A stretch of DNA of 33,585 nt from an uncultured Spirochaetota bacterium (GTDB taxonomy: Bacteria > Spirochaetota > Spirochaetia > Treponematales > UBA12059), in the NCBI GenBank assembly GCA_937873275.1, contig CALMRC010000164.1:1-33585 (forward strand), read 5' to 3'. The notes below the pieces were generated by a model. That model worked only from the letters and a program-made list of their open reading frames with translations. It did not search any database and was not told where the DNA came from. Within the stretch, counting starts at the first letter, position 1; each line of letters opens with the position of its first letter. A program made the position numbers and the translations under genes. Positions 3,946-19,399 of this stretch are shown here, piece after piece.

Positions 3946-4056
3946 CTATTCTTCGCTCTTGTTGGCGGCTTTTTCCTTCTTTTCCTTCCGCTTTTCCTTG
4001 AGGGTTTTCTGGGCCTTCTTCTTGGGTTCCTTGGCCTGCTTGCTCTTTTCTTTCAT
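3946..4056 (-). CDS. Possible independently translated 36-aa lysine-rich protein nested in the rluA-like frame
   Basis: ATG 4056 is preceded by GGAGGA at ideal spacing, and a promoter-like pair lies about 100 nt further upstream. The product starts [16 protein letters not shown] and continues as Lys/Glu/Ala repeats to the stop, likely one charged helix. Small lysine-rich proteins of this style often bind nucleic acid or ribosomes; here that is only a guess. It lies in the same frame as the pseudouridine synthase. It is therefore either that enzyme's tail, a separate small protein, or both. Confidence 0.5.
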
Positions 4057-4881
4057 GTGTCCTCCTCCGGGGACCGCAGTTCCGGGTCCCGCCGTATCCG
4101 CGCCGCCGGCCGGGGTTCCGGCCGCGGGGGAGGGCCGATGCTTAGCCCCCCCGGGTACATAGTATAGGCCTTTTTGCCGGCCGCGCAAAGGCCGGAGGAA
4201 GCTGTCCGGTACGGGGCTCTCCGCCCGGACCGTGCCGCCCCCGAAGGGCCGCTCGAGCTCGATGGACACCGCGTGGAGGGCCAGCCGTCCGGCGGGGTCC
4301 GTGCGGGCCCCGTACCGGGAGTCCCCGGCGACCGGGTGACCGAAGGCGGACAGCTGGGCCCGGATCTGGTGCTTCCGGCCGGTCTCCAGCTCCAGCTCCA
4401 GGAGGGAGAAGCCGCCCCCCGTCTCCAGGAGCCTCCACCTTGTCACGGCCCGGAGGGCTCCCGGGCTTCCCGGCGGCGCCTCGTACACCGTGCCGGCCCG
4501 GTTCTCCCGCAGCCAGGAGTCCAGGACCCCGGCTTCCCCGGGCGGCGTCCCCTCGACCAGGGCCGCGTACCGTCGGGTGCGCACGAGCTGGTTCCACCGG
4601 TCCATGAGCTCCCGCTTGGCGGCTCCTCCCGTGGCGAACACCACCACCCCGGAGGAGTCCCGGTCCAGACGATGCACCACCGCCGCGCGCCCCTTGGGAT
4701 TGCGTCGGCGGATGTGCACGGTGACCCAGTCGTAGAGGCTCCGGGACCGGCCCGACGAGCCCTCGGGGGCGATGGTGGGGAGACCCGCGGGCTTGTCCAC
4801 GATGACCAGGTCCTCGTCCTCGTAGAGGATCTCCGGGGACCCGGGGCGCGGGGAAGCCCGGCCGGACCGGGACGACTTCAA
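3946..4881 (-). CDS. RluA-family RNA pseudouridine synthase with a lysine-rich C-terminal extension
   Basis: Pseudouridine synthases of this family isomerise uridine in rRNA or tRNA. The core reads [16 protein letters not shown], then [14 protein letters not shown] with the catalytic Asp in [33 protein letters not shown] follows near the C-terminal side. The start is a TTG (4879-4881) that overlaps the TGA of the DUF493-like gene (TTGA). The upstream part of the frame is shadow. The enzyme core should end near residue 240. The frame then runs without a stop through a Pro/Gly-rich linker and a Lys/Glu-rich segment to the stop at 3946. That tail could instead be a separate small gene (see 3946-4056). 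No S4 domain is visible. It is the middle gene of an operon with the aldo/keto reductase. Confidence 0.8.
4161..4188 (-). promoter_or_regulatory. Internal promoter candidate in the 3' part of the rluA-like gene
   Basis: On the minus strand TTGCGC (4183-4188), a 16-nt spacer and TATACT (4161-4166) mimic the fecR promoter (TTGCGG-16-TATACT). Transcription from here would run into the lysine-rich small ORF with a leader of about 100 nt. The site sits where the conserved enzyme domain ends. Confidence 0.45.
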
Positions 4882-5189
4882 ATCGCGGCCTTCACGTAGG
4901 GTAGCTTGCCGACCTCGGAATAGACCGCGTAGAACTGGGCCCGGTTCCGGACGGTGATGCGGCTGCCGAAGCGGCCGTACTTGGCCCCCGGCTTCGCGAC
5001 GCCCTGGAGCAGGGAGCATTCCACGCCCAGGCGGGCGTAGAGAGCCTCGAGGTCGGACTGGATGGAGGCTCCGTCCGCGAGGACGTAGATGATCCGGAGG
5101 TCGAAGGTGACGGGAAAGCTCATCTGGGCTCCCCCGAAGGGGGCGCCGCAGGACTCGGGGATGACCCCCTCGTCGGGATTGGGTTCCAT
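4878..5189 (-). CDS. DUF493/YbeD-like small protein
   Basis: The product is 103 aa from ATG 5189, or 81 aa from Met 5123. The Met 5123 start has a GGGGGAG stretch upstream. The pattern SFPVTFDLRIIYVL, then [32 protein letters not shown], matches the ferredoxin-like fold of the YbeD/DUF493 family. These are small cytoplasmic proteins of uncertain, possibly regulatory, function that are often near lipoate or RNA genes. It is the first gene of the operon with the RluA-type enzyme (TTGA overlap) and the aldo/keto reductase. It reads divergently from truA across the 36-bp repeat array. The family call rests on pattern memory only. Confidence 0.6.
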   Translation of the reverse strand: MEPNPDEGVIPESCGAPFGGAQMSFPVTFDLRIIYVLADGASIQSDLEALYARLGVECSLLQGVAKPGAKYGRFGSRITVRNRAQFYAVYSEVGKLPYVKAAI

Positions 5190-5253
5190 GGGACTACGAT
5201 GCCATGGGCGGCGGCGGCGTGTCGAGACCGGTTGGATCTTGTCTATGCGAAGT

Positions 5254-5421
5254 TCAGATAACTCGCGTCGGGGCCGAATTATGCATACCCCACTTAATTA
5301 GCGAGGGTGCCGAAATATGCGCGCCTCACATAACTCGCGCCGGCGTTCAAATATGCATGCCTCACATAACTCGTACCGCAGCCCCATTATGCATGCTTCG
5401 CATAATTCGCGCCCCGGTCAT
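5254..5421. repeat. Degenerate 36-bp tandem repeat array in the truA / DUF493 divergent spacer
   Basis: The gene-free stretch 5190-5524 is dominated by this array. Units start at 5254, 5290, 5326, 5362 and 5398 (the last is partial), and a fragment precedes at about 5241-5253. Each unit has a conserved 12-nt start (TCACATAACTCG in units 3 and 4), a variable 11-nt GC-rich middle, and a conserved 13-nt end (AAATATGCATGCC-like). Unit junctions form inverted repeats. The best is ATTATGC-N7-GCATAAT, centred at about 5394. The AT-rich conserved blocks contrast with the GC-rich genome. The array could hold multiple operators for a dimeric regulator, or it could be a selfish tandem repeat. It is open in the truA frame and would encode a 12-aa ITRxGxxxCxPH repeat. 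Confidence 0.8.
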
Positions 5422-5524: not shown

Positions 5525-6286
5525 ATGCGGAACCTGCTGTTGATCCTGGCGTACGACGGAACGGCCTACAAGGGCTGGCAGAGGCTGCCCGGCGCGGGCA
5601 GGACCGTCCAGGAGGCGGTGGAAGCCGCCCTGGGGCGGGTCCTGGGGGAGGAGACGGCCATCCTCGGGGCGGGGAGGACCGACGCCGGGGTCCACGCGGA
5701 AGGTCAGGCGGCCAACTTCCACACGGCCTCGGACCGGGATCTCCAGGAAATCCTGGCGGACCTGAATGCCGCCCTGCCCCGGGACGTGGCCTGCCGTTCC
5801 CTCAAGGAGGTTCCCGAGCGCTTCCACGCCCGGTACTGGGCCGTCGAGAAGACCTACCGGTACCGGATCCATTCCCACCCGATCCCGGACCCCTTCTCCC
5901 AGCGCTACAGCCTCCACGTCCCGGAGTCCCTGGACATCCCGGCCATGGAATCCGCCGCGGCGGAGCTGGTCGGGAAGCGGGATTTCTCGGCCTTCGCCAA
6001 CCACCGGGGATCCAAGAAGGGATTCGAGCGGGAGCTCCGGACCGTCAGGGTCCAGAGGAACGGGGCGTTCGTGGACATCCTGTTCACCGCGGACGGCTTC
6101 CTGTACAACCAGGTCCGCATCATGACCGGGGCCCTCCTGGAGGCGGGTCTGGGCCGGCTCGGCCCCAAGGACGTGCGCCGGATCCTGGAGGGCCGGGACC
6201 GTTCCGCCGCGCCGGGAGCCGCCCCCGCCCAGGGGCTCTGCCTGGTCCGGGTCGAGTTCCGTCCCGACCTTCCCCCTCCGGAATGA
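5525..6286 (+). CDS. truA: tRNA pseudouridine(38-40) synthase TruA
   Basis: The 253-aa product makes pseudouridine at positions 38-40 of the tRNA anticodon arm. The family signatures are all present. They are LAYDGTAYKGWQ at the N-terminus, GRTDAGVHAEGQAANF with the catalytic Asp, KTYRYRI, and DFSAFANHRGSKKG. FLYNQVRIMTGALLEAGLG is near the C-terminus. I start at ATG 5525 because the family begins with residues like MRNLLLILAYDG. The frame stays open upstream to 5204 only because the 36-bp array lacks stops in that frame. The TGA overlaps the ATG of the radical SAM gene (ATGA), so the two are coupled. It has no clear Shine-Dalgarno sequence. Confidence 0.95.
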   Translation: MRNLLLILAYDGTAYKGWQRLPGAGRTVQEAVEAALGRVLGEETAILGAGRTDAGVHAEGQAANFHTASDRDLQEILADLNAALPRDVACRSLKEVPERFHARYWAVEKTYRYRIHSHPIPDPFSQRYSLHVPESLDIPAMESAAAELVGKRDFSAFANHRGSKKGFERELRTVRVQRNGAFVDILFTADGFLYNQVRIMTGALLEAGLGRLGPKDVRRILEGRDRSAAPGAAPAQGLCLVRVEFRPDLPPPE

Positions 6287-19262: not shown

Positions 19263-19296
19263 ACAAAAAAGGACGGCCTCGGCCGTCCTTTTTTGT
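19263..19296. terminator. Bidirectional terminator between fecR-like gene and liv operon
   Basis: A 15-bp stem (19263-19277 with 19282-19296) has an A6 run on the left arm and a T6 run on the right. It can stop transcription from both converging units. The truncated dispersed repeat abuts its left edge. Confidence 0.85.
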
Positions 19297-19399
19297 GGCA
19301 ACGAAGCCCTGAGGGCTTCGTCGAGCTTCACGAAAATCCGGCCTCGGCCGCCCTTTTTTATGGCAACGAAGCCCTGAGGGCTTCGTCGAGCTTCATGAA
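19274..19399. repeat. 65-bp direct tandem duplication of a hairpin cassette
   Basis: 19274-19334 is repeated at 19339-19399 with few differences. Each unit has the GGCCTCGGCC/T-run terminator core and a second hairpin (CGAAGCCC-TGA-GGGCTTCG). Confidence 0.8.

Follow-up and report, generated by a model that had tools for sequence, protein, structure and literature searches.

Tandem 36-bp palindrome arrays in a spirochaete genus as candidate docking sites for an insert-less, integron-like recombinase

The truA spacer holds a five-unit palindromic array

The window analysed here, that is, the whole stretch of 33,585 nucleotides, contains truA and an operon of a DUF493-like gene and an RluA-family pseudouridine synthase gene, which diverge from a spacer occupied by a tandem array (Table 1). 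The initial annotation placed the array between truA and a DUF493-rluA operon; the truA and RluA-family assignments stand, while the DUF493 one is a weak match. The listed start of the RluA-family ORF is probably too early, the true start lying further in, and the ORF beginning at 5204 is truA over-extended through the array. The truA frame is open across the array in this genome, as first remarked, but both congeners (G001 and G002) have stops in that frame, which means that coding of the 12-aa repeat is not conserved; a coding repeat was rejected.

The array consists of five units with an exact 36-bp period and ends at about 5410-5417. Its period-36 self-match is 0.67, compared with a maximum of 0.43 over periods 10-60 in 2000 dinucleotide shuffles. 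Each unit is best described as a 29-bp imperfect palindrome followed by a variable 7-bp spacer, with the family consensus GCGAATTATGYGAA-S-TTCRCATAATTCGC for the palindrome. Within a unit the inverted arms TTATGYGAA and TTCRCATAA are separated by 1 bp, and 17 bp lie between the facing arms of adjacent units. The right arm of unit 3 contains CACATAAC, whose reverse complement GTTATGTG is as in the R' box of the attC sites of G001. The 36-bp tandem array of the initial annotation is borne out by this analysis, with a slightly longer span, and its inverted repeats are correct, including ATTATGC-N7-GCATAAT at 5387-5407; its division of the unit into 25 and 11 nucleotides is the same array in another phasing.

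Table 1 Positions of the features discussed, in window coordinates unless a contig or locus is given
Feature	Position	Strand	Score or match
Whole array, 5 x 29-bp imperfect palindromes with 7-bp spacers	5238..5417	.	
Unit 1 palindrome, degenerate left arm	5238..5266	.	profile score 23.5
Unit 2 palindrome	5274..5302	.	profile score 27.6
Unit 3 palindrome	5310..5338	.	profile score 33.7
Unit 4 palindrome, CACATAAC in right arm	5346..5374	.	profile score 25.6
Unit 5 palindrome	5382..5410	.	profile score 31.0
truA	5525..6286	+	TIGR00071, above cut-off
DUF493-like gene	4878..5189	-	weak Pfam match, E 0.019, below cut-off
RluA-family pseudouridine synthase, next in the DUF493-like operon	3946..5019	-	good family match
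C158 recombinase of this genome, 438 aa	G000:C158, L045:1426-2742	-	homologs L055-L071
G034 integron-like recombinase, with attI core and attC-like sites	G034:C1:2031591-2032394 (L069, L078)		

An Rfam scan of the window gave no match, and the exact palindrome TTATGYGAASTTCRCATAA returned just three unrelated single matches among 84,980 species searched. A literature search with the sequence strings retrieved dif/pdif papers and primers only. Several known classes of repeat were considered and rejected. A hairpin or single-strand role was discarded, as the complementarity of the arms, within units or across spacers, did not exceed that of partners drawn at random from that array (p = 0.87 and 0.22). 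A CRISPR array requires a constant repeat and spacers of about 20 bp or more, as opposed to the 7-bp spacers and variable arms seen here. An attC site, defined as a hairpin R''-L''...L'-R' that borders a cassette and spans about 57-141 bp or more, does not fit either: the units are 36 bp long, adjoin no cassette and show no phase-specific complementarity, and an attC or CALIN identity was set aside. Elsewhere in the window, at 19274-19399, a 65-bp unit is present in 1.9 copies (95% match) with the inverted repeat CGAAGCCCTGAGGGCTTCG inside.

Arrays recur in intergenic spacers of the genus

A second array in the genome was found by a degenerate pattern, and further ones by a covariance model of two-unit windows. 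This genome (G000) carries six arrays in all: in the truA spacer, between flgF and a MocR-like aminotransferase gene (contig C11), between a tatD-like and an outer-membrane protein gene (C51), between tetR and an OmpA-like gene (C113), between the convergent ends of a membrane protease-like and an ABC-F gene (C73), and beside a recombinase gene (C158). The setting is divergent at truA, flgF and tetR. The congener G001 has arrays at truA, flgF, tatD, tetR, the recombinase and arsR, and G002 has one at truA, yet none at its recombinase. Every array in the three genomes is intergenic. The search of the genome and its relatives proposed in the initial annotation returned about six arrays here and others in the congeners, none of them inside genes. 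The search covered 59 genomes of the order and gave no convincing array beyond the genus (best other match E 7.5e-4, in G052), and the truA loci of the other genomes of the family had no array. In the flgF spacer of G001, an 11-bp tandem repeat, CCC(G/T)GCGAATC, directly follows the 36-bp array (L022:1639-1693).

A dedicated regulator of truA or RNA modification, as first suggested, is unsupported because the same array occurs at flgF, tatD, tetR, the attI region of the recombinase and the convergent gene ends on C73. A MITE or other mobile repeat was likewise rejected, as no 13-mer is common to the flanks of arrays from different loci.

Arms are conserved over spacers while the arrays turn over

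The truA array can be aligned unit by unit across the three species. Between G000 and G001 the arms are 69% identical and the spacers 32% (p = 0.0008), a difference that supports the initial proposal of palindromic half-sites for a DNA-binding protein. A similar result was obtained for G000 and G002 (arms 64%, spacers 32%, p = 0.004), while the difference between G001 and G002 (82% and 71%) was not significant. Since the arms are more conserved than the four-fold sites of truA in the G001-G002 pair only, the constraint on the arms holds relative to the spacers. Homogenisation that maintains a shared motif could contribute to the similarity of the arms.

At flgF and tatD the flanks are 88-94% identical, while the arrays themselves are not aligned by blastn, and the number of units at flgF varies (8 versus 3-4). 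Some arrays are homogenised, spacers included. The arsR array of G001 is absent from the counterpart spacers of G000 and G002, which are short, and the C73 array is absent from G002. Four sites are common to two species, namely the truA, flgF, tatD and tetR spacers. Together, the orthologous sites and the differences in presence suggest that the positions are mostly old and that the arrays at them turn over, being gained or lost.

An insert-less recombinase is followed by attC cassettes

The recombinase on C158 is a tyrosine recombinase that scores 211.6 bits against the XerA/integron integrase NCBIfam model (cut-off 220) and 207 bits, in two pieces, against the integron integrase model TIGR02249 (cut-off 265). 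The distance from its KGxKDR to its HxLRH motif is 75 residues, whereas 116 residues separate these motifs in canonical IntI from related genomes. The missing stretch of about 41 residues corresponds to the IntI-specific insertion (the additional I2 domain), and its absence sets the recombinase apart from the integrase of a classical integron. Canonical IntI above the cut-off was present in 3 of the 11 genomes tested (G024, G008 and G010), and the remaining eight (G000, G001, G002, G034, G026, G041, G042 and G025) have the insert-less type only. G008 carries canonical IntI and an insert-less recombinase in one genome (G008:C33 and G008:C11). Two other Xer-like recombinases of G000 lie on contig C84.

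AT-rich cassettes follow the insert-less recombinase in genomes that have no canonical IntI. Six attC-like sites were found after it in G001, four in G041 and one in G034, which may be Treponema primitia ZAS-2. The adjoining attC cassette array of a classical integron is present in G001 and G041; on the short C158 contig of G000 no such array was seen.

Array arms resemble the arms of attI

The array profile, trained without any sequence from a recombinase locus, has matches immediately beyond the 3' ends of two recombinase genes, the one on C158 and its ortholog in G001. In G000, about nine units of the type TTC-R-Y-ATAATCTCGCGC, mostly 36 bp apart, are flanked by the recombinase gene on one side and, on the other, by an AT-rich ORF that matches a PD-(D/E)XK nuclease. 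This ORF (L049:82-1017, minus strand; PF14281) adjoins the recombinase array and is probably the first cassette. In G001 the recombinase is succeeded by two units and then by CACCTAA-TAATTG-TTATGTGCA, which forms the crossover core; the cassette array beyond it carries six long attC sites, whose R'' box is ACATAAC and whose R' box is GTTATGT. In G034 the arms of the attI core TTCGCATAA-AAGGAG-TTATGCGAA equal the consensus arms of the arrays. A unit-like palindrome precedes this core, and the profile match there scores 18.0, little above chance matches in AT-rich DNA (16.4).

Additionally, we took the attI right arms of ten genomes from other genera to build a half-site matrix; these arms were chosen by eye, and a clear left arm is missing in four. 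On the ectopic arrays this matrix scored 3.8 at one arm phase and 2.5 at the other, while all other phases stayed below -9.9 and the maximum of the random control was -14.9. This contrast owes much to TTA; when only the six columns that follow it are scored, their actual order ranks 2 of 720 permutations. The attC R' boxes of G041 (GTTAGGC) and G008 (GTTAGAT) agree with the attI arms picked in those genomes. Since the matrix peaks at exactly the two arm positions, each array resembles a tandem series of attI arm pairs with the 6-bp core missing. The window array has gaps of 1 bp and 17 bp only, versus the attI crossover core with its arms about 6 bp apart and G|TT, a core that the recombinase loci of G001 and G034 do have. 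The window array lies on a separate contig from the integrase gene, whereas the C158 array and the G001 array at the orthologous recombinase are beside theirs. The attI connection is not visible from the window itself.

Discussion

We propose, with a probability of roughly 60%, that the truA array is a set of tandem double-stranded docking sites for the genome's own cassette recombinase, derived from an attI arm pair; the C158 recombinase is the most likely binder. On this proposal, which is drawn from sequence comparison, each 36-bp unit would be a recombinase arm pair copied from attI. At the integron, units of this kind separate the recombinase gene from the first cassette and run up to a crossover core made of a left arm, 6 bp and a TTATG arm. 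The ectopic sites, truA included, have arm pairs alone; with neither the 6-bp core nor a cassette, these arrays should bind the recombinase without recombining or taking up cassettes. Binding at truA might interfere with a promoter, titrate the recombinase or be a tolerated by-product, and the array would have at most a side effect on neighbouring promoters.

Several other explanations have to be weighed against this one. The arrays could be neutral or selfish tandem repeats that arose from an attI-like seed, expanded by slippage and spread without serving a function, which we regard as unlikely. Such a repeat, already named as an alternative in the initial annotation, agrees with the dispersal of the arrays, with their presence in some congeners and absence from others at the arsR and C73 sites, with the differing unit number at flgF, with the homogenisation of some arrays down to their spacers, and with the unalignable arrays inside near-identical flanks at flgF and tatD. 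It fits less well with arms that remain similar at truA while the spacers saturate, and it sits poorly with the confinement of the arrays to spacers, with mostly orthologous positions and four sites shared by two species, and with the lack of common flanking ends that would mark a mobile element.

It appears quite unlikely that the arrays are operators at which a nucleoid protein or a dimeric transcription factor binds cooperatively in 36-bp steps, with the attI array as one target. Palindromic units do occupy several divergent or upstream spacers (truA, flgF, tetR and arsR), and their arms are conserved over the spacers. However, the C73 copy lies between two convergent gene ends, the neighbouring genes have no function in common, and the array arms equal attI arms of other genera, which have no such arrays. 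Furthermore, 36 bp is about 3.4 turns, which would place neighbouring units on different sides of the helix. More improbable still is a docking array of the host XerC/XerD, with a chromosome-dimer or topology function, rather than of the cassette recombinase. XerC/XerD are conceivable binders because Xer arms are similar, TTCGCATAA being a Xer-type arm known from pdif/dif sites, and because the host dif site was not found: a pattern search for it as the source of the arms returned nothing conserved. The two Xer-like recombinases on C84 would be at hand as well. Against them stand the identical 36-bp unit type beside the cassette recombinase and the identity of the arms with attI right arms of other genera.

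Docking by the cassette recombinase can be set in a wider picture, which we offer tentatively: one lineage of integrons in spirochaetes would take up cassettes by means of an insert-less recombinase, and one genus would have amplified the attI arm pair into 36-bp arrays at fixed chromosomal spacers, sites at which the recombinase would bind but not recombine and might regulate the neighbours or be titrated. Counting against docking by this recombinase, ectopic arrays are absent from most recombinase-bearing genomes, and G002 has the truA array with none at its recombinase. The arrays are most likely more than an ordinary tandem repeat: they would be binding repeats of the attI type, linked to an integron-like system whose recombinase is unusual. 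If the recombinase does bind them, integron recognition sites have spread over the chromosome as fast-turning, non-recombining docking arrays, of which we found no description in the literature. A paradox has been stated (PMC4792948) as to what could have selected for the I2 domain ahead of attC sites, or for attC sites ahead of the domain; an insert-less integrase with attC cassette arrays may bear on it. The extra domain is regarded as the distinguishing feature of IntI (PMC9024848), and IntI searches that rely on it could overlook insert-less systems.

Three known systems invite comparison. The dif/pdif sites of XerC/XerD, like the attI core here, have TTCGCATAA and TTATG arms that flank a centre of 6 bp. 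In the arrays, by contrast, the arm order is reversed and the gaps measure 1 and 17 bp, which leaves no recombination centre. The chromosomal integrons of Treponema are reversed, and Treponema primitia was reported to show no trace of integrons (PMC3607928). As in those reversed integrons, the integrase is transcribed towards attI and the cassettes, and the attC R' boxes are of GTTA type; unlike them, the recombinase here is free of the IntI-specific insertion and the attI-arm arrays are dispersed. A further parallel is offered by class 1 integrons, whose attI has the accessory direct repeats DR1 and DR2, extra integrase-binding repeats beside the crossover core (PMC8946536). Both systems would share repeated GTTA-type arms and binding repeats next to the attI core; DR1 and DR2 are two repeats in one place, whereas here 2 to about 9 palindromic 36-bp units are accompanied by core-less ectopic copies.
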